NCBI GenBank assembly: GCA_946480995.1
Contig: CAMLMF010000107.1
Location: 1 to 7,623, forward strand
Source: an uncultured Bdellovibrio sp.
GTDB taxonomy: Bacteria; Bdellovibrionota; Bdellovibrionia; Bdellovibrionales; Bdellovibrionaceae
Reading direction: 5' to 3'
DNA length: 7,623 nt
Below are positions 1-7,623 of the stretch, piece after piece (position 1 is the first letter of the stretch; every line of letters begins with the position of its first letter). The notes below the pieces were generated by a model. The model worked only from the letters and a program-made list of their open reading frames with translations, made no database searches and was not told the origin of the DNA. The position numbers and the translations under genes were made by a program.

Positions 1-1340
1 CTTTTGCCAAGCTTTTGCAAAGCTTTGATGACTTGGCTGATAGTGCCATTCAGGTCGCGAGTCGCTGGAAGACCCGGAAGAATTGGCATTCCCGGAATAC
101 CGCCAAGACCCGAAAGTCCACCGATACCTGTTAATGTATCAATACCAGCTGTTCCATTGATGTCATTAAGGTTGATTAAGAATTGGGTAAAGTCCGAGAT
201 GAAGATAAAGAAATCTTCAGTCGGATCAATCATCGTCAAAGTCAGACTGTAACGACGGCCTTCGCGAATTTCTGATTCTTCAATCGCATGACCTTGCAAG
301 CGCAACAAACCTTGCCAGTGTGGTTTCACCATCGTGCCGCCCCACCAACTGTCGATGAAGCGAGTTTTGCCGCCAGCAGAAACTTCACGTAATTCAAATT
401 CTCCAGCGAAAGGCTGGTTATAGTGCGAAGGGCTTGAACAAACACCCGCTTTGCATAGTTTCGGCGTGTTGTTGTTAAAGTAAACGTAGGGATCAATATG
501 GAAAGTCAGATCTTCACCTGAGATGTTAAGCTGACCCATTTGAATGTCGCCAGTATAGTCAGAAATGAAGCGAGGAGTTTCGATTCCTTGGTCTTCATTT
601 AGCGGAAGCAGACCTGTCGGCGGTTGAATGAAAACACGATTTGGAACTGAACCAATCGGAGTTACATCCGTGCTTACACCAGAATCATCACCTGTAACAT
701 AAGAGTTCAAAGCGATGTTAAGGTCTTGCGGTTCGATGTTGTTATCATTCAAGAATTTTTGGCTTTTGCACTCTTGCTTTAAAGTCATAGAGACAGCAAA
801 GCGGTTGTTGGGACGGATACGCAAGAAGCACAAAGTACCTTCTAAGCGCAAGATGCCGCCTTCTTCGCGGATGATTTTGCAAAGAGGTGTTTGTCTGAAT
901 TCAAGTGGTGCGCGCGCTTCATCTTGTACAGTGATGTATGTGCAAAGACGTAAAGCGCGTAATTGTTCAGATGTAAAATTGATTCCATCCTGATCTGTTT
1001 GTACAGGCTCTTTATAGATACCCGTAACAGAGCACATAGAGGGCTCCATTTTTCCATCGACAATAATTTGATTCGTGTCGGAGATGATTGAAGGGCGAAC
1101 AATACCTGTGGTTAACATCAGGTATTTGCCGCTGTCGGCTTGACAGCGGTCAATTACCACCGGAGCGGGGCCTAAATCGACCCCCATTCCGAAGTGTCCT
1201 GTGTTGTTATTTTCAGGCGCGAAAAAGAAATCTGCGGAGCCAGGTTTGCTCATTTTACATTGAGCATAAGTAAGGCTTGGAACAAGAACACTCATTCCAA
1301 GTGACATGCAAACTGCGACGAACAAACCTTGATATTTCAT
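1..1340 (-). CDS. Exported cysteine-containing protein of unknown function (partial, 3' end beyond left edge)
   Basis: A continuous minus-strand reading frame begins at ATG 1340-1338 and stays open through 446 codons to the left edge, so the C-terminus is missing. The start is supported by GAGGAG just upstream and by a Sec signal peptide, MKYQGLFVAVCMSLGMSVLV followed by PSLTYA, probably cleaved before Q27. The visible mature part has nine cysteines (about residues 28, 66, 103, 133, 154, 171, 191, 296, 301), including a close pair LCKAGVC at 296-301. Many alternating hydrophobic stretches suggest a beta-rich fold. Around residues 404-424 lies a Gly/Leu/Pro-rich stretch (GIGGLSGLGGIPGMP, then ILPGLP), perhaps a linker to another domain outside the window. 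I see no lipobox, transmembrane segment or known catalytic motif, and do not recognise the family. It is the fifth gene of the leftward train, 23 nt after the 380-aa gene. Export is well supported; function is unknown. Confidence 0.9.
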   Translation of the reverse strand, partial: MKYQGLFVAVCMSLGMSVLVPSLTYAQCKMSKPGSADFFFAPENNNTGHFGMGVDLGPAPVVIDRCQADSGKYLMLTTGIVRPSIISDTNQIIVDGKMEPSMCSVTGIYKEPVQTDQDGINFTSEQLRALRLCTYITVQDEARAPLEFRQTPLCKIIREEGGILRLEGTLCFLRIRPNNRFAVSMTLKQECKSQKFLNDNNIEPQDLNIALNSYVTGDDSGVSTDVTPIGSVPNRVFIQPPTGLLPLNEDQGIETPRFISDYTGDIQMGQLNISGEDLTFHIDPYVYFNNNTPKLCKAGVCSSPSHYNQPFAGEFELREVSAGGKTRFIDSWWGGTMVKPHWQGLLRLQGHAIEESEIREGRRYSLTLTMIDPTEDFFIFISDFTQFLINLNDINGTAGIDTLTGIGGLSGLGGIPGMPILPGLPATRDLNGTISQVIKALQKLGK

Positions 1341-1363
1341 AAACTCCTCGATCTCAAATTCAA

Positions 1364-2506
1364 TTAGTTAAGAGTGCCTGGAACTGATTCGTTGATTTCA
1401 GTCCAAGTACACATTTCAGCACCGTGACGTTGCCATTTTCTCAAGTTGAACACTTTACCAGTTGTGTTGCTTGAACCTTGAGCAGCTTCGCCAGCCAAAC
1501 CGTTTGTCTCAGTGAAGATGTAACGGATTTTGCAGAAACGTGGAGCTTTCTTTTGGTCAGCAGTGATGTAAAGGTTGTTGAACAAACCAACAGTGTTAAC
1601 GCCATTCAAGAATGATGGGTTAGAAGTTGCCCATGAGTTAGAACCATTTGGTTTAATAGTTACTTGCTCGATGTTCGCTTCGTTGTCGATAGTGTTGTAG
1701 TTACCAGAGTTCATTGTTGAACCGTTATGAGCGTACTTGTAAGTACCTTCTTCTTGGCGGTCGCAAACTACGTAAGATTTAACTTTAAGACCAGAAAGCT
1801 TAGTGTAGCTGATTGGGCTGTTGTGACCAACTGGAGTAATACCATCGCGGCTAGAGTCGCCTGGATTTACTGAGTTAGAAAGGAAATCTGTCGCAGAAGC
1901 TTGAGCGTTCAATGTGAAGTTAGAGTTAACTCCAGTGTACTCAATTTGTGGGCCACGATAGCAGATATCAACGAAGTATTCAGCGCTGTAAAGCTCAGAA
2001 CCTAGGTTGAAAGTAAGTTCTTGGATACGTTTGTTCCAAGAGATATCGTTTTTAACAGTTGAAGTGCCAGAAGCATTTGAACCGTTAGAGTTATCAACAA
2101 GAAGTTGCTTCCAGTTGTTGCCCATGTCTTGGAATACAGTTGTAGCTGTATGAGGCAAGTTTAATGCATCACCGTTTGTACCAGTTGATCCACCGTTGTC
2201 AGTCCAGTCAACAACTGAAGCTGCACCGTAGTTCATCAAGTAAGCGCCGCCGCCTTCAGAAGAACATACACAACGAGTGTGGCATGTTACGTCGTCAGCT
2301 GCGCAGGCATTTGGTGTACAAGCCGCGCCAGTATCTTGAATGTAACATACGCGAGGACCGTTTGGTGTACGGATACCAGCGTTACAAGCGTAGATGCTTG
2401 GACCTGAGCTGAATACTTTGAATTTGAAACGCAAAGAAATTGCGTTCGCGCTTTGTGCAGAAACAAGTAGCATTGCTACCGCTGCTAATTTTAATAAGTT
2501 AGTCAT
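1364..2506 (-). CDS. Exported cysteine-rich protein of unknown function, 380 aa
   Basis: ATG at 2506 is preceded by a strong AAAGGAG with about 5 nt spacing; the stop is TAA at 1366-1364. The N-terminus MTNLLKLAAVAMLLVSAQSA-NA is a typical Sec signal peptide, likely cut after ANA (residue 22). The mature chain has 11 cysteines, seven of them in residues 41-81 (C41, C54, C63, C68, C75, C79, C81). This cluster contains CAADDVTCHTRC (68-79), whose spacing matches a motif in the 196-aa protein encoded just upstream. The remaining cysteines are spread through a long region rich in Asn, Ser, Thr and Gly with alternating aromatic and hydrophobic residues, as in beta-rich surface proteins. Codons lean to GGT, CGT, AAC and GTT, suggesting high expression. 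No catalytic motif or known domain is seen. It is the fourth gene of the leftward train, so it probably works with its neighbours outside the cytoplasm, perhaps as a structural subunit (inference). Confidence 0.92.
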   Translation of the reverse strand: MTNLLKLAAVAMLLVSAQSANAISLRFKFKVFSSGPSIYACNAGIRTPNGPRVCYIQDTGAACTPNACAADDVTCHTRCVCSSEGGGAYLMNYGAASVVDWTDNGGSTGTNGDALNLPHTATTVFQDMGNNWKQLLVDNSNGSNASGTSTVKNDISWNKRIQELTFNLGSELYSAEYFVDICYRGPQIEYTGVNSNFTLNAQASATDFLSNSVNPGDSSRDGITPVGHNSPISYTKLSGLKVKSYVVCDRQEEGTYKYAHNGSTMNSGNYNTIDNEANIEQVTIKPNGSNSWATSNPSFLNGVNTVGLFNNLYITADQKKAPRFCKIRYIFTETNGLAGEAAQGSSNTTGKVFNLRKWQRHGAEMCTWTEINESVPGTLN

Positions 2507-2535
2507 TTGTTCTCCTTTTGATCTAACGTTCTGTT

Positions 2536-3126
2536 TTAAGGGTTGTTAATGCTTAGTTTATCAATAGATGACTTAATAACTTGTGGGTTATATTCCAAGA
2601 CATGCATGTCTTGATTCATAGGTCCCGTGCCGTTGCAAATCACATATTTTATTTGATTCGGTTCATTGTAGGCGTTCTTACCCAAGACCACGATAGGTTC
2701 CGCTGTATCGTCTGAATTGCACAAGAACTTAAAGCGCGCATAGATAGCAGTGCTATCAACTGGCGTATAGAAGTTGTAAATACTTTTCGCGGTAACAAAG
2801 ATGTGATCTGCTCTGAATACGTTAGATGTTTCGCTGATACCTAAAGTGCGTGGGGTTGTGCGAAACAAACGGTCAATTTCAGTGAAAACAACTTTAAGAA
2901 TCGGATTTGCTGTGCCCAGGCAGTTATAGCAAAGCTCTTGTTCTTTGATGCAGGCTTCAGAGTTTCCGCAAGTGCGTAAGCAAAGCAATTCATCAGGACG
3001 GCAGTACAATGTGACAGAGTCTTGAAACTGTCCGTTGGGGCCAACGATCACTTGAGAGTGCGCCTGCCAAGCATTGGCTAAAACAGTATTTAAAAGAATC
3101 GTTAATAAGATAACCGCGAATTTCAT
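2536..3126 (-). CDS. Exported small cysteine-rich protein of unknown function, 196 aa
   Basis: I start this gene at ATG 3126-3124. The frame could extend to an ATG at 3153, but that start adds nine non-signal residues (MSQCDRTVN) and overlaps the upstream gene, whereas the inner start gives a clean Sec signal peptide, MKFAVILLTILLNTVLANA. The chosen start lies 2 nt after the TAA of the 908-aa gene, so translation is probably coupled; a weak purine-rich GGACGG upstream fits this. The mature protein has eight cysteines, six of them between residues 42 and 69 (C42, C49, C53, C59, C66, C69), then C136 and C164. CRPDELLCLRTC (42-53) has the same C-x6-C-x3-C spacing, with an acidic pair in the same place, as residues 68-79 of the next gene's product. 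The rest looks beta-rich. The family is not recognised; a disulfide-bonded extracytoplasmic component is likely. Confidence 0.9.
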   Translation of the reverse strand: MKFAVILLTILLNTVLANAWQAHSQVIVGPNGQFQDSVTLYCRPDELLCLRTCGNSEACIKEQELCYNCLGTANPILKVVFTEIDRLFRTTPRTLGISETSNVFRADHIFVTAKSIYNFYTPVDSTAIYARFKFLCNSDDTAEPIVVLGKNAYNEPNQIKYVICNGTGPMNQDMHVLEYNPQVIKSSIDKLSINNP

Positions 3127-3128
3127 AT

Positions 3129-5855
3129 TTACCGTCCGATCGCATTGCGACAAGGTTGATGGAAGCCTCTGATACTAACAAGTTTGAAAGAGTCCACGTT
3201 TTTAGGATCGCAAGTGAAGCGCATGATGCTGTCACCTTTGCAAAGGTCAGATTTAACCCAACCTTCTTTTTGCGTTGAAGATGCGCCGCCGCCCTCGCCG
3301 TATCCTTCAGCTCCACGTAAGTACACATCGTGCACTTTCGTATTGAACGTTTTCTCGAACACTTGAGCAGCCTTCCCCGCGCAGACATCCGCAAAACAGC
3401 GCATGCCACGACCTAATTGCTCAACACAGTACGATGGAATTTGTCCGTATTTTTTGTAAACTTCAGCCGCATAAGCAGGATTTACTTCCCACGTTTGCGG
3501 AATATTCACTTTATCTTTTTGTGCACTAAATAACTTTGTGAACGTGCGGAAAACATAGACCACGAATTTAACCGGATTAACTAAGCCCATAGTGCCAGCC
3601 ACCGTTGAAGCGTGAGCTGCCGCATTGAAGTTTAAAGTACAGCCCGCACAGAAAGAACGGCCACTTTTTGCACCTGTGGCAACGTCACTTGGTTTGTTGG
3701 CAATGACTTCGTTCGCCTCTTTAGCGCTGCAATAGTTCATCGAGATACCCGAGAATGTATAGAAGTCGAAGTTTTTTAAACCGTCATTATTTAGTGAAAC
3801 CGCGCAAGGAGCGCCCACCAAAGGGCCAAAGTCCGCGACGATAGAACGCTCGGCTTCTGATTTTTCGATACGAGGATCAAACTTGATCACGCCATCTTTA
3901 ACCATTTGGTTGAAAGAGGCTACTTTCGGCGCTTTATAATTCACATCGATATAAATTGGCAGAATGTTCCAACCAAAAAGAGCCGTATTAACAAGGTCTG
4001 CTGCAAACACTTTATTCATACGCTGTGTTTGGAACCAAGGATCATAGATCTTACAAGTTTTAAGTTCTGCATAGGGATTGAAGATGCTTGCATCTGTCGC
4101 TTTACCAGACAATGGGATTAAGCCGTCCGCAAACGTCGAAACTGCGTAAAGATCGACCAAGCTCTTAATCATCAAGCGCACGCAATCTACTGAGTTGTAG
4201 CAAATAACTTGTTCTGGCGAAGCCGTTGTGGCTTTCCAAGCTAACAATGGGGCATCTCCGTAGACAGCAGGCATAATTTTGTTAGCTTCTGCCTCTTCAG
4301 GAGTATCTTTGATCGAAAGCATTTCTTTCGCCCACGGAGCGAAGCCGGCTTTGTTTACAGTGTAATCAACGTCTGACTGAGCACCCCAATAGTTTTGTTT
4401 TTCAAGATCATCACAGAACGGGATTACTTGCGCAGTCAGGGATTTAAAGAAGTCGATGTGTTGTTGCAACGTTCTTCTTTCAGAGTACTGCATTTGCGTC
4501 ATGTTTTTAAGCGCTGCAACTCGTTCAATGTCAGACTTTAGGAAATCAAGTCTGTCGTCACCCGCAAGACGGATCTCAGTACACATGTAGTAAAGTTCAT
4601 TCTTCATTTGCGCAGCTGTTTTATTTTTTGCCACCTGCGTGCTTAAAGCCTGAGTTAATTCAGCAAGACCCATTTGGTCTTGGATCACGTTCATATTAGT
4701 GACCGCAGATTGATAGCGATTTTTTATATAACCACGTGCTTGAATTAGATTTTTGCGGAAATTTCCCAACCACGCCTCAGCAGAGTTATGAGATTGCGTG
4801 CCTAAGAAGTCATTGTTAACGCCGCGAACGCCTTTGTTTAGCAACTCAGCTTCGGTGCCCACGGGAACGGTTTTAAAGTGTTCCGCTTTTGCGCCGTCAA
4901 GCTTGGCAAGTTCGCGGATGCTGTTTACAGATAAGTATTGGCTGTCGCATGAAGGTTTGGTCATGCTTTTGCAACCATTAGGAGCGAAAATCAAAGATTC
5001 TTCAAGGGCGATTGATTTGAAGATGCGACCGAAAGTCGGGCTCATCACGTCTAATTCATTCGTGTGGCGCCATGCCCATGAAAGATAAATTTTTAAACTG
5101 TTCCAGAAATCAAAACCTTGCTTTTCTAAAGAGGCAGGATCTGTTTCCCAGTCCAATTGTAAAGTAACGAAACGATTGCTGAGAGATTCATCGGCGTCGA
5201 AGCAGCCCACTAAGTAATCTTTTTCGTTCATGTAAGCGACTGCGATATCTTGGAGATTTGATTGGTTCACTTCCGCAGAGCTTAGTTGGCCTTGCAGGGC
5301 CGAGAATTGTTTAATGTAGTAACAACCCAAACGGTCTTTAGAGGCATGTAATGGGAAGTTGGCTTTTGTGAAACGGTCATAAGCCAATAAATCGGCTTTT
5401 TTACCCTGACGCGCCCAAATGCCAGAAATATAAGCGTCTAGGTTTTTGCAAGATTGCGGGTTCTTTTCGCACTCTTCATTGGTTTGTACGTATCTTGGCA
5501 GATCCGCCGTTTTAAGATTCGAAGGCAAGACTGGCAACTGACCGCGCACCATCTTGTTCATAATATTCAAAGTCATAAAAGCGACGGAAAGACGGAACTC
5601 GCGCATCGCTCTTTTGCTGAACTCTTCAGGATTTTGGCCAACGATTTTTGCAATCGAGTTGGCCGCTTTTCCCGCGTTGTATCCATCGATCATGACGAAG
5701 ATGGAATCAGCTGGTTTTTCAGAATCAACCGCGCACTGCGCGCGATTTGTGATCGTCAAAGGTTTTAGAAGAGACGTTTGATGAGCTGGCACTTGCCCCC
5801 ACGCTGTGGAAACTGTCAGTGCAAGCATTGGTAAAATAACAAACATCTTCTTCAT
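3129..5855 (-). CDS. Large exported cysteine-rich protein of unknown function, 908 aa
   Basis: This is the largest gene of the window. ATG at 5855 follows GAGGG with a 4-nt spacer and begins a Sec signal peptide (MKKMFVILPMLALTVSTAWG, then QV). The mature chain has 22 cysteines, an even number, often in close pairs: C129/C136, C736/C739 (FCAGC), C820/C825 and C872/C882, consistent with multiple disulfides. Much of residues 60-600 reads as helical, with long stretches rich in Leu, Ala, Lys and Glu. A Gly-rich patch (GYGEGGGASS, about 851-860) lies near the C-terminus. There is no transmembrane segment after the signal, no lipobox, and no protease, lyase or ATPase motif that I can identify. It is second in the leftward train, 23 nt after the 178-aa gene and 2 nt before the 196-aa gene. 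Its size suggests a scaffold or surface component of the putative complex, but that is inference. The family is unknown to me. Confidence 0.93.
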   Translation of the reverse strand: MKKMFVILPMLALTVSTAWGQVPAHQTSLLKPLTITNRAQCAVDSEKPADSIFVMIDGYNAGKAANSIAKIVGQNPEEFSKRAMREFRLSVAFMTLNIMNKMVRGQLPVLPSNLKTADLPRYVQTNEECEKNPQSCKNLDAYISGIWARQGKKADLLAYDRFTKANFPLHASKDRLGCYYIKQFSALQGQLSSAEVNQSNLQDIAVAYMNEKDYLVGCFDADESLSNRFVTLQLDWETDPASLEKQGFDFWNSLKIYLSWAWRHTNELDVMSPTFGRIFKSIALEESLIFAPNGCKSMTKPSCDSQYLSVNSIRELAKLDGAKAEHFKTVPVGTEAELLNKGVRGVNNDFLGTQSHNSAEAWLGNFRKNLIQARGYIKNRYQSAVTNMNVIQDQMGLAELTQALSTQVAKNKTAAQMKNELYYMCTEIRLAGDDRLDFLKSDIERVAALKNMTQMQYSERRTLQQHIDFFKSLTAQVIPFCDDLEKQNYWGAQSDVDYTVNKAGFAPWAKEMLSIKDTPEEAEANKIMPAVYGDAPLLAWKATTASPEQVICYNSVDCVRLMIKSLVDLYAVSTFADGLIPLSGKATDASIFNPYAELKTCKIYDPWFQTQRMNKVFAADLVNTALFGWNILPIYIDVNYKAPKVASFNQMVKDGVIKFDPRIEKSEAERSIVADFGPLVGAPCAVSLNNDGLKNFDFYTFSGISMNYCSAKEANEVIANKPSDVATGAKSGRSFCAGCTLNFNAAAHASTVAGTMGLVNPVKFVVYVFRTFTKLFSAQKDKVNIPQTWEVNPAYAAEVYKKYGQIPSYCVEQLGRGMRCFADVCAGKAAQVFEKTFNTKVHDVYLRGAEGYGEGGGASSTQKEGWVKSDLCKGDSIMRFTCDPKNVDSFKLVSIRGFHQPCRNAIGR

Positions 5856-5878
5856 AAAACCCTCGGCACTATCAAAAA

Positions 5879-6415
5879 TTAGTTATTGATCGCTTTACAG
5901 TTGTCTACTTTGTTCAACATAGTTGTGTAGAACAAGATAACCGTTTGGTCTGCAGGCGAGAAATTACGCTTTGTAGAACCGTCACCGTTAACCATTTGAT
6001 ACATGTACGTGTTTACGAAGCGGTAAACCGCAGGAGTTACACGAAGAGTTGAGTTACAAGTGTAGTTTTTGTAAGTCACAGTGATGCCCGCGTTGTATTG
6101 CGGTTCATTGTTGTTTTGATTTTTACCATCTGTACCGATGTAAAAGTTGTTGCCGTTGTTACCGTTGTTATTGCCATAACCTACGTTAAAGCTAACAGTC
6201 CAACCTTGGCCGGCACCGTCAGTACCAACGATAGAGCAAAGGTTGCCTTTACAAGCCACTGCCATTTCGTTTTCGATTTTCTTTTGAACGTCTGCTTCAG
6301 AATAGTGTGGTGCTGGACGAGGATCGTACTCAGGGCTTCCACCGTCAAACTCGTCCGCATAAGCGTGAGATGACAAGACCAATGCGATAGCGGCACATAG
6401 TGCTTTTAACTTCAT
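5879..6415 (-). CDS. Exported Asn/Gly-rich small protein of unknown function, 178 aa
   Basis: This is the first gene of the leftward train. I choose ATG 6415-6413 rather than the in-frame ATG at 6427, because GGAG lies 6 nt before the inner ATG while nothing resembling a ribosome binding site precedes the outer one. The inner start also gives a standard signal peptide, MKLKALCAAIALVLSSHAYA, cleaved before DEF. The mature protein has an acidic, Pro-containing N-terminus (residues 21-40) and four cysteines (C55, C60, C120, C173) that could form two disulfides. A Gly/Asn-rich tract at about 79-104 includes GYGNNNGNNGNNF. The rest has alternating beta-like segments and a helical C-terminus. Codon choice (GGT, AAC, GTT) suggests strong expression, and the first position after the promoter fits an abundant subunit. 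No family is recognised. Such Asn/Gly tracts occur in surface-exposed or flexible proteins, but the role remains open. Confidence 0.9.
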   Translation of the reverse strand: MKLKALCAAIALVLSSHAYADEFDGGSPEYDPRPAPHYSEADVQKKIENEMAVACKGNLCSIVGTDGAGQGWTVSFNVGYGNNNGNNGNNFYIGTDGKNQNNNEPQYNAGITVTYKNYTCNSTLRVTPAVYRFVNTYMYQMVNGDGSTKRNFSPADQTVILFYTTMLNKVDNCKAINN

Positions 6416-6436
6416 AGTTTTCTCCATACATATAGG

Positions 6437-6469
6437 GGAAAGTAAATCTCGAGCGAAATTTACGTTTCC
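6437..6469 (-). promoter_or_regulatory. Bulged hairpin in the 5' leader of the leftward operon
   Basis: On the minus strand GGAAACGTAAAT is followed, after a 10-nt loop (TTCGCTCGAG), by ATTTACTTTCC. This gives 11 base pairs with one bulged C. The structure ends about 11 nt upstream of the GGAG that serves the 178-aa gene. There is no U-run behind it, so it is not a terminator. It could protect the 5' end or modulate translation initiation; the function is inferred. Confidence 0.45.
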
Positions 6470-6569
6470 GCATTTTTATTTAAAGTGGGCCTTGTATACA
6501 CAGTCGCCTTAAGAAAGACTAGTGGGATTATTTTCGCTGTAACAACTTTACGAACTTGTCATTCATTTC

Positions 6570-6597
6570 GTCATACGTAGCATTACGGGCCTGTCAA
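6570..6597 (-). promoter_or_regulatory. Candidate sigma70-type promoter of the leftward operon
   Basis: On the minus strand a perfect -35 hexamer TTGACA (6597-6592) is followed after 16 nt by TATGAC (6575-6570), a 4-of-6 match to the -10 consensus. Transcription would begin near 6563, giving a leader of roughly 150 nt before the ATG at 6415. The -35 box abuts a palindrome that may be an operator. This is prediction from consensus only; the 16-nt spacer and imperfect -10 leave doubt. Confidence 0.45.
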
Positions 6598-6619
6598 CAA
6601 ACTATAGTTTGTCGTAATG
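6581..6619. promoter_or_regulatory. Operator-like palindrome within a nested inverted repeat
   Basis: ACAAACTATAGTTTGT at 6597-6612 is a perfect 16-bp palindrome sharing one base with the TTGACA box. It is flanked by a second pair of arms, CATTACG (6581-6587) and CGTAATG (6613-6619), with nine extra bases on the left side only. A symmetrical site beside a -35 element is the usual layout for a dimeric repressor or activator site. The AT-rich core with GT/AC ends is of the kind bound by TetR-type regulators, but the regulator is not in this window and the assignment is inference. Confidence 0.5.
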
Positions 6620-6741
6620 AATAAGTGTTAAATTCGTTTTAATGCTTTTAAAGATAGTTGTGACTTATTTGCATCGCCCGGGGTGGGAGATCCTTGCAGA
6701 GTGTGTTTTAGAGGCACAGTGTCTATTTTACATAGGGCGGG

Positions 6742-6804
6742 ATGAGCGAAACCAACGTTATCCATTTTAGTCGGAGTGAATCGAGATCCTCCTACTGTGA
6801 GTAA
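6742..6804 (+). CDS. Possible micro-ORF or leader peptide, 20 aa
   Basis: ATG 6742 is directly preceded by AGGGCGGG, which could bind ribosomes although it is very close to the ATG. The frame encodes MSETNVIHFSRSESRSSYCE and ends at TAA 6802-6804. A weak 5-bp hairpin (ACTGT/ACAGT, 6794-6808) and a T-rich run (6811-6817) follow. It could be a leader peptide, the remnant of a lost gene, or chance. Nothing about it is conserved or recognisable to me. Confidence 0.15.
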   Translation: MSETNVIHFSRSESRSSYCE

Positions 6805-6829
6805 CAGTCAATTTTTTAGCGGTTGTGAT

Positions 6830-6858
6830 TTGACTTTGCGACCTATCTAGCGTGCCAT
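6830..6858 (+). promoter_or_regulatory. Weak candidate promoter of the lipoprotein gene
   Basis: TTGACT (6830-6835) is a 5-of-6 -35 match. At 17 nt spacing lies TGCCAT (6853-6858), only 3 of 6 to the -10 consensus. A start near 6866 would leave a leader of about 19 nt containing the AGAGGGG ribosome binding site. The poor -10 makes this tentative. Confidence 0.2.
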
Positions 6859-6884
6859 AACTAAACAACATACAGAGGGGTCCC

Positions 6885-7454
6885 ATGACATTCAGAAGAA
6901 TAGCCAGCGCACTTATTTTATCCAGCACAATGCTTTTTGCCGGTTGCAAATCGGCCGAAGTGAAGCAAGAGGTTTCTGCTCCTGTTTCCACGCCTAAAGT
7001 GGCGATGGAAGAGTTGAATATTATCGGTATTAAAACACGTACGACCAATGCCCAAGAGATGGGCGGCAAAGGTAAAATCTTGCCTTTGTGGAAGAAGTTT
7101 TACGGGAAGAAGATGATGGCCAAAATCCCGGGAAAAACCGATGGTCAGGTTTACGGCGTTTATCATGAATACGAAAGTGATATGAACGGGGCTTATTCTC
7201 TTTTAGTAGGGGTTAAGGTGGCTCCAGGCACGAAGGTTCCTAAAGGGATGACGCTTCTAAAAATCCCGGCACAAGACTATGTTCATGTAGCCTCACCAAA
7301 AGGCGAAATGCCGGGTGTGGTTGTCGAAGCGTGGAAAAAAGTCTGGTCCGCGACGGATTTCAAAAGAAAGTATTCCTATGACTTTGAAATTTACGGGGAT
7401 AAAGCGAAAGATCCCAAGTCTGCGGAAGTGGACCTTTACATCTCGACTCTTTAA
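6885..7454 (+). CDS. Lipoprotein with GyrI-like / effector-binding (Cass2-type) domain, 189 aa
   Basis: ATG 6885 follows AGAGGGG with a short spacer. The N-terminus (MTFRRIASALILSSTMLFAG-C) is a type II signal peptide with lipobox LFAGC, so C21 should be acylated. Lys at +2 would favour the outer membrane by the E. coli rule. A short linker (22-40) leads to a domain filling residues 42-189 with the marks of the GyrI-like small-molecule-binding fold: YGVYHEYESDMNGAYSLLVG (90-109), IPAQDYVHV (127-135), two Trp (150, 154), DFEIYG (166-171) with the Glu typical of the ligand pocket, and EVDLYIS at the end. In AraC and MerR family regulators, and in free-standing Cass2 and SbmC/GyrI proteins, this fold binds ligands or partners in the cytoplasm. 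Here it would be exported and membrane-anchored, perhaps as a sensor or scavenger (inference). It is divergent from the leftward operon and ends at a strong terminator. Confidence 0.88.
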   Translation: MTFRRIASALILSSTMLFAGCKSAEVKQEVSAPVSTPKVAMEELNIIGIKTRTTNAQEMGGKGKILPLWKKFYGKKMMAKIPGKTDGQVYGVYHEYESDMNGAYSLLVGVKVAPGTKVPKGMTLLKIPAQDYVHVASPKGEMPGVVVEAWKKVWSATDFKRKYSYDFEIYGDKAKDPKSAEVDLYISTL

Positions 7455-7464
7455 GAGTGAAACA

Positions 7465-7486
7465 AAAAGGGGCGAAAGCCCCTTTT
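7465..7486. terminator. Bidirectional Rho-independent terminator
   Basis: AAAAGGGGC, loop GAAA, GCCCCTTTT forms a 9-bp stem with a GNRA-type tetraloop, starting 11 nt after the stop of the lipoprotein gene. Rightward transcripts end in TTTTGCTTT; leftward transcripts end in TTTTTGTTT. It therefore serves both the plus-strand lipoprotein gene and the convergent minus-strand gene ending at 7497. Confidence 0.9.
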
Positions 7487-7496
7487 GCTTTACTGA

Positions 7497-7623
7497 TTAA
7501 TCAACTTTGTCTTTAACTTGTTCGACTTTCGTTGATGTTTTGTCTTTCAGTGTTTCTGCTTTGTGTTTTACTTTTTTTGCAACACATTCCACTTTGCCAT
7601 TGATAGTTTCGCACACTTTGTCT
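7497..7623 (-). CDS. C-terminal part of a Lys/Asp-rich small protein (partial, 5' end beyond right edge)
   Basis: On the minus strand an open frame enters from the right edge and ends at TAA 7499-7497. The last 41 residues run from DKVCETINGKVECVAKKVKH to the C-terminal EQVKDKVD. The segment is dominated by Lys, Asp, Glu, Val and Thr with K-D-K spacing that suggests an amphipathic helix like those of LEA or YtxH-like stress proteins. Two cysteines eight residues apart (VC...EC) could form a disulfide if the protein is exported, which the missing N-terminus prevents me from judging. The frame ends just before the shared terminator, as expected for a real convergent gene. The family is not recognised. 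Confidence 0.72.
   Translation of the reverse strand, partial: DKVCETINGKVECVAKKVKHKAETLKDKTSTKVEQVKDKVD

Follow-up and report, generated by a model that had tools for sequence, protein, structure and literature searches.

Five adjoining genes for exported, cysteine-containing orphan proteins in an uncultured Bdellovibrio may encode an extracytoplasmic fibre or coat

What is made by a tight row of genes whose products all appear exported, all contain cysteines and none resembles a known family? The question is raised by a 7,623-nucleotide stretch of DNA (the window) from an uncultured Bdellovibrio sp. (contig CAMLMF010000107.1, positions 1 to 7,623, forward strand, assembly GCA_946480995.1), in which five such genes, here A to E, follow one another. 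A description made from the letters alone (the sequence-only reading) had proposed that they form a five-gene operon for a dedicated extracytoplasmic assembly, a proposal that fits both the near all-or-none inheritance of the genes and the codon signature of one major subunit reported below. We put at about even chances that the operon's products form a protein assembly outside the cytoplasm, most likely a fibre or coat, with the product of gene D as its main component.

All five genes are co-directional on the minus strand and separated, from A to E, by 23, 2, 29 and 23 nt. Gene A (6415-5879) encodes 178 residues with four invariant cysteines, has the second-highest codon adaptation of the set and is the cassette member most alike between Bdellovibrio loci; an alternative in-frame ATG lies at 6427, and GGAG directly precedes 6415. 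Gene B (5855-3129) encodes 908 residues with 22 cysteines, of which 16 are invariant and five more nearly invariant across 76 sequences. Its predicted fold is mostly helical with beta regions toward the C-terminus, and a long beta-hairpin at residues 704-741 (3633..3746, minus strand), partly of low confidence in the model, holds Cys709, Cys736 and Cys739. Gene C (3126-2536) encodes 196 residues with eight cysteines. Gene D (2506-1364; 380 residues, 11 cysteines), predicted to be beta-rich, is the proposed major subunit, and gene E (1..1340) runs past the left end of the window with at least 446 residues, its full length being 523-530 residues in HD100. The N-termini of A to E are hydrophobic and signal-peptide-like; signal peptides and the D cleavage site were judged by eye, the former also by hydropathy. 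Counted beyond residue 25, the cysteines number 4, 22, 8, 11 and, in the incomplete E, 9. The open reading frames (ORFs), gaps of 2-29 nt and cysteine counts thus confirm the earlier description of five tightly packed, exported, cysteine-containing genes, and its supposition of a Bdellovibrio-like host agrees with the closest locus, L001, from a Bdellovibrio sp. metagenome-assembled genome and 95% identical in B.

Searches of Pfam and NCBIfam gave no family above cut-off for A to E, and no credible match to PDB sequences was found, in line with the statement that the five products show no known domain. When each alignment member (32 A, 31 B, 28 C, 28 D and 27 E) was scanned against Pfam at E<=0.1, any family was matched by only one or at most two members, and these scattered matches are taken as chance. 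Every known family tested by sequence failed. NCBI records label some D relatives (P0072, P0084, P0088 and others) 'protease', although no credible match to a protease family was found.

The set goes well beyond chance: at E<=0.001, 61 relatives of B were found. A pattern scan with the B profile over genomes of 84,980 species found 35 loci encoding B, and the same scan of viral contigs found none. The record titles of the 35 loci read Bdellovibrio, Bdellovibrionaceae, Bdellovibrionales, Bacteriovorax, Halobacteriovorax, Bacteriovoracaceae, Bacteriovoracales, Oligoflexia and Proteobacteria, and the link of the cassette to predation rests on these titles and on HD100. B matches with in-frame stops, either pseudogenes or assembly errors, occur in G007, G011, G037, G040, G043, G044, G046 and G110. 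Strain kdesi has three B genes, one of them a solo paralogue (L004:9989-12757) that adjoins no A, C, D or E.

The grouping recurs in relatives, as the sequence-only reading would lead one to expect: most of the 35 loci have A, C, D and E near B. Over these loci and the window, the A cluster was seen in 34 of 36, and C, D/D2 and E in 30 of 36 each, the gene counts coming from greedy ORF picking, with several contigs ending inside the cassette and the genes of L021 partly masked by the greedy choice. The Bdellovibrio-type order is A-B-C-D-E, followed where the contig continues by D2, a D paralogue of ordinary codon usage, and in some loci by a further gene, F. F stands after D2 in L002, L003, L010 and HD100 copy 1 and directly after E in L019 and L022, and D2 is present without F in L005, L008 and HD100 copy 2. 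Most loci of the Bacteriovorax/Halobacteriovorax type, and L018 (titled Bdellovibrio sp.), read D-E-(D2)-A-B-C; L021 retains A-B-C-D-E, and L023, L026, L030, L031 and L032 are rearranged. The operon of five therefore stands for the window genes and not as a total, since fuller loci add D2 and in some F; we infer that the window locus should run on leftward with D2 and perhaps F. No second hydrophobic or membrane stretch was found in A-E of the window or in A-E, D2 and F of HD100 copy 1 (19-residue mean hydropathy beyond residue 30 at most 1.41).

The genes are also largely inherited together. In a survey of 368 genomes of the phylum, in which the best few candidates per genome were scored and genome completeness was not stated, the number of genomes with the gene was 74 each for A and E and 75 each for B and D. 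All four were present in 69 of the 80 genomes that had any and at least three in 73, and exactly one was found in four genomes (G079, G110, G143 and G357). Pairwise Fisher values for A, B and D were below 1e-63, with relatedness ignored. The cassette thus largely tends to be kept or lost as a block. G143 carries a lone A homologue (L101:6068-6478, plus strand; 47% identical), with B, D and E not found in this genus member; it is possibly a remnant or a free-standing paralogue.

Genome G136 was taken as HD100, on the basis of matches of the Bd0110 and bd0743 primers and of a neighbouring gene whose product is PDB 6sd8 (Bd2924) over its full 505 residues. HD100 has two clusters, at about 708-717 kb (copy 1, A-B-C-D-E-D2-F) and 2835-2843 kb (copy 2, A-B-C-D-E-D2). 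Copy 1 lies beside genes placed as bd0743 and bd0745, the latter label following from a statement in the consulted part of PMC3464611, and copy 2 adjoins Bd2924; the loci would be numbered about Bd0746-Bd0752 and Bd2925-Bd2931, respectively. Neither cluster lies at the hit locus (Bd0108/Bd0109) beside the type IVb pilus genes bd0108-bd0121, the Bd0110 primer matching at 99 kb. For A to E of copy 2, the three nearest relatives of each gene were L005, L006 and L007 and not copy 1 (25 loci compared); judged by these relationships, the cassette is duplicated as a set. The window cassette is of copy-1 type by nearest neighbours for A, B, C and E, and its D has HD100 copy 1 nearest, then L021 and L010. 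The neighbour of HD100 copy 1 and of kdesi L003 differs from the GyrI-like gene beside the window cassette, so the latter sits at another site.

The flanks of copy 1 were sought in the seven members of HD100's genus without B and in G145 and G148, which have a single B taken as copy-2-type. The spacing from bd0745 to the lipoprotein flank was 2.0 kb in G156, 1.6 kb in G141 and 0.8 kb in each of G154, G143 and G137, vs. 9.3 kb in HD100, where F to A lie between, and no cassette protein was found between the flanks in these five species (tblastn, E 1e-6). This spacing indicates that the A-F block is present or absent as a whole at the copy-1 site. G145 and G148 have bd0743, bd0745 and the lipoprotein flank near one another, in changed order and orientation and with no cassette among them, and the 12.5 kb read in G140 and G146 showed neither bd0743 nor bd0745. 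B is present in 17 of the 24 genomes of the genus and in 33 of 140 in its order. The seven congeners without B found indicate that the cassette is not needed for predation as such, and the absence of B from them argues for an accessory role, such as attachment, surface coat, biofilm or prey-range tuning.

Codon usage sets D apart from its neighbours. The codon adaptation index (CAI) was trained on 18 ORFs of the HD100 ribosomal region, a reference used for all loci. The background consisted of 97 ORFs, each 150 codons or longer, drawn from the cassette flanks and from five arbitrarily chosen 20-kb stretches of HD100 (background mean 0.52, maximum 0.72; ribosomal mean 0.70). D reached a CAI of 0.750 in the window, 0.764 in HD100 copy 1 and 0.739 in L003, and each of these values exceeds the ribosomal mean and every background ORF. 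A followed with 0.698, 0.684 and 0.683; in the same three loci, B, C and E, as well as D2 and F where these occur, ranged over 0.46-0.61. In a reference-free bias test on 22 loci with complete A-E sets, which left out the window and the HD100 copies, D was the most strongly biased of the five in 19. Between the window and L001, dN/dS (nonsynonymous over synonymous substitution) was 0.074 for A, 0.023 for B, 0.029 for C and 0.104 for the partial D, and dS was 0.37 for A and 0.18 for D, vs. 1.40 for B, 1.75 for C and 1.39 for the GyrI-like neighbour. The low dS of A and D suggests codon selection on these two genes, or recombination. Read from the codons, the pattern would fit one protein made in bulk alongside minor partners. 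Upstream, an element CACTTTAAATAAAA (6474..6487, minus strand) lies 59-72 nt ahead of gene A, and CACTTT with an A-rich tail also occurs at -72 to -81 in L001, L002, L003 and HD100 copy 1.

A hint of how D might assemble comes from its mature N-terminus. Residues 22-34 (2405..2443, minus strand) form a conserved strand of alternating hydrophobic residues, AISLRFKFKVFSS, a candidate donor strand. Of 224 D relatives found, 120 were listed, and 114 of these carry the motif, preceded by I-x-L-x-F-x-F, immediately behind the likely cleavage site. In these 114, four alternating positions are hydrophobic in 99-100% of sequences and the four between them in 0-2%, which speaks for the strand itself but not for its exchange; of the six unmatched relatives, five visibly carry a close variant and one is without its N-terminus. 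A pattern for the strand occurs in none of seven D2 from Bdellovibrio-type loci, some of which by eye retain a short V-x-V, and, in a form loosened to allow F or L at the end, in 23 of 25 D. As for the fold, the best structural neighbours of the D model, all of low Z, include the TasA fibre and are for the most part carbohydrate-binding, capsid and adhesin domains of jelly-roll type; on this modelling D is probably a jelly-roll.

TasA of Bacillus subtilis (camelysin family) forms fibres as a donor-strand polymer and resembles the cassette in its abundant Sec-exported subunit, its jelly-roll (probable in D), the hydrophobic strand directly after the signal peptide and a second, minor exported protein of the operon (TapA there, D2 here). 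No TasA/camelysin family was found in 28 D relatives at Pfam E<=0.1 or NCBIfam E<=10, HMMER filters dropping most weak matches. Chaperone-usher pili share the donor-strand principle and have major and minor subunits in one operon; no family of PapD-like chaperone or outer-membrane usher was found in the members of A-E and F families or the D2 examples. In the consulted part of PMC9674648, TasA polymerises through residues 28-38 at its N-terminus, a donor strand that fills in the sheet of the following subunit, and the likeness of the D strand is a lead for the same mechanism by analogy, not proof of it. The endospore appendages S-ENA and F-ENA are likewise fibres of small beta proteins, and the N-terminal extension of F-ENA docks in a hydrophobic groove of its neighbour, as given in the part of PMC11952670 consulted. 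They differ in belonging to Firmicute spores and in size and gene set, and no ENA family (DUF4183 for F-ENA) was among the Pfam matches of 28 D members at E<=0.1. The MAT chimeric fibres of Bdellovibrio bacteriovorus are predator surface fibres (PMC10769870, in the part consulted) and consist of trimeric beta-prism adhesin proteins; no family match connects the cassette proteins with them, and A-E members gave no credible Pfam domain.

Put together, all parts would be exported by Sec and hardened by disulfides, with D as the repeating main subunit. Its copies may be linked in the manner of TasA, each inserting its N-terminal strand into the sheet of its neighbour. D2 would be a minor tip or end subunit. 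A would be a second abundant part and B, C and E scarcer disulfide-rich ones; the largely helical B, with A, C and E, may serve as base, periplasmic scaffold or binding parts, and F, where present, as a thiol-enzyme-like processing factor. The likely site would be the cell surface or a prey-facing envelope. A bolder form of this proposal, which we advance tentatively and think rather improbable, is a new class of fibre in predators: a disulfide-hardened jelly-roll D polymerised by N-terminal strand exchange, no chaperone-usher pair, B as scaffold base, and a swappable cassette that maybe tunes prey or surface range.

Several observations weigh against a fibre or coat built from D. Its monomer model is weak (predicted local distance difference test, pLDDT, 67.7; below 50 at residues 18-25 and 29-34); the low confidence at the N-terminus may be a failure of the model, and the alternating strand itself may be an ordinary edge strand. 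Foldseek with the D model found nothing at E<=0.001, and VIA Z stayed below 6. Codon bias hints at expression, not at polymerisation, and is weaker in copy-2-type loci (D 0.68 in HD100 and 0.62 in L005; A 0.58 and 0.55); the bias test had B strongest in L006, A in L013 and C in L019, with D unbiased in L006 and L019. D distances correlate least with those of the other genes (rho 0.21-0.43, others 0.50-0.79), and D may therefore evolve under other pressures. The cassette gave no match to an usher, a secretin or any other family of outer-membrane pores, and no FliA attack-phase promoter motif was found upstream in the 11 loci scanned.

Other explanations would account for part of the same evidence. 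The proteins might be secreted into or onto prey as an effector or prey-envelope-modifying complex, with D as the most abundant effector or a carbohydrate-binding part. Bdellovibrio does secrete proteins into prey (PMC11003981, in the part consulted), the low-Z structural neighbours of D include carbohydrate-binding modules (CBMs) and the CBM-like domain of a sialidase, F has a Cys/His pair, and the 'protease' names of some D relatives point the same way; yet no credible catalytic family was found in A-E members at E<=0.1, D has no invariant or nearly invariant His, a protease family matches at most one of 28 D members (Peptidase_U32, E 0.065), and the seven congeners without B limit this explanation too, which we regard as unlikely. 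Somewhat more doubtful is a periplasmic or outer-membrane module that serves another machine. The F-type conjugation proteins TraN, TraU, TraH, TraW and TraF are exported and cysteine-rich, and the cassette has a similar make-up of several exported cysteine-rich proteins, B with 22 cysteines, without an energy source of their own. However, TraN, TraU, TraH and TraW families are absent from the Pfam matches of A-E family members at E<=0.1, no transfer ATPase was seen by eye beside the cassette, the codon usage of D points to a bulk protein, and in the window and the 35 loci nothing other than A-F was observed to recur next to the cassette across families. Such neighbours as do recur (clusters 6-15, in 4-7 loci each; by eye resembling UvrB, a response regulator and flagellin) do so only in loci related to one another, mostly marine and of Bacteriovoracaceae type.

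That the cysteines bind metal or haem in a redox or metal-handling system, instead of forming disulfides, seems improbable: CxxC motifs occur in C (C66/C69) and B (C736/C739) and a CxxCH in the D of HD100 copy 2, but CxxCH is found in only 1 of 125 A-E proteins, no credible metal or haem family was found in A-E, and the cysteines of B are spread along the chain at conserved positions, as disulfides would be. Still less probable is a coat operon for bdellocysts. Exported, cysteine-rich products, one of them apparently abundant, would suit a coat, but marine Halobacteriovorax (L013) has the cassette and HD100, which is not known to form bdellocysts, has two clusters, and the role in cyst life raised by the sequence-only reading is for the latter reason not favoured. 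Least of all do we credit a chance adjacency of genes with no joint action. Gene order does vary between A-B-C-D-E and D-E-A-B-C; L023 and L031 have D, E and A separated from B and C, in L026 an inverted A lies by itself, and in L030 and L032 the genes A, D and E are divergent from B. Against this stand near-identical phylogenetic profiles, empty sites and duplication as a set. An assembly built mainly from D is thus the explanation we retain, at the strength given at the outset.

F, the one member with a possible enzymatic signature, is an exported protein of about 400 residues with 5-6 cysteines, Cys63 and His165 being invariant in eight sequences. Its family matches are limited to weak ones to DUF4846 (two of eight members, best E 0.0016), and from its sequence F may be a thiol hydrolase. 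The claim that no enzyme lies among the genes accordingly holds for the window, as far as families tell, and may fail for those fuller loci that carry F. F relatives also lie away from the cassette in all five genomes searched. HD100 has near full-length relatives at 2666054 and 2812266, and frames of 588 and 567 residues (1119069-1120481 and 2382109-2383524, plus strand) each match F in two separated pieces.

Beside the cassette and divergent from it, the window encodes a GyrI/Cass2 effector-binding protein (6885-7454, plus strand; Pfam Cass2 E 3.5e-25), whose N-terminus is lipoprotein-like; the cassette of L001 has the same neighbour. At 7498-7623 (minus strand) the C-terminal 41 residues of a lysine-rich frame with two cysteines enter from beyond the right end, and no Rfam family was found in the window. 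In L031, from a Bacteriovoracaceae genome, two transposase-like ORFs (16938-18043, minus strand; IS3-like by eye) separate the halves of a split cassette, and the larger has a relative at L009:24-854. In the marine-type loci L012, L013, L024 and L029, the cassette is followed by the same mostly opposite-strand block, partly chemotaxis-like by eye, and then a flagellin-like gene; this may be no more than shared synteny.

In open-licence main texts, supplements not included, none was found naming Bd0746-Bd0751, with Bd0752 covered only through the prefix Bd075, and absence from print is not established. The prefixes Bd292, Bd293, Bd294, Bd075 and Bd0745 in Bdellovibrio-related main texts returned only Bd2924 (PMC6851490) and Bd0745 (PMC3464611). 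As far as the consulted parts go, PMC12546842 mentions of Bd07 and Bd29 only Bd0774 and Bd2997, PMC11003981 has no Bd074, Bd075, Bd292 or Bd293, and PMC10769870 no Bd07 or Bd29.

These results describe up to seven orphan families of exported proteins, of which four were each detected in 74-75 of the 368 genomes surveyed from one phylum. The phylum is known for its bacterial predators, and the CAI of D, above the ribosomal mean, suggests that the model predator HD100 makes an abundant and little-studied structure or secreted product. Congeners that have or lack the cassette at one site offer a natural experiment on prey range, attachment or biofilm growth. If D does form fibres by donor strands, predatory bacteria would use this principle with no recognised usher.

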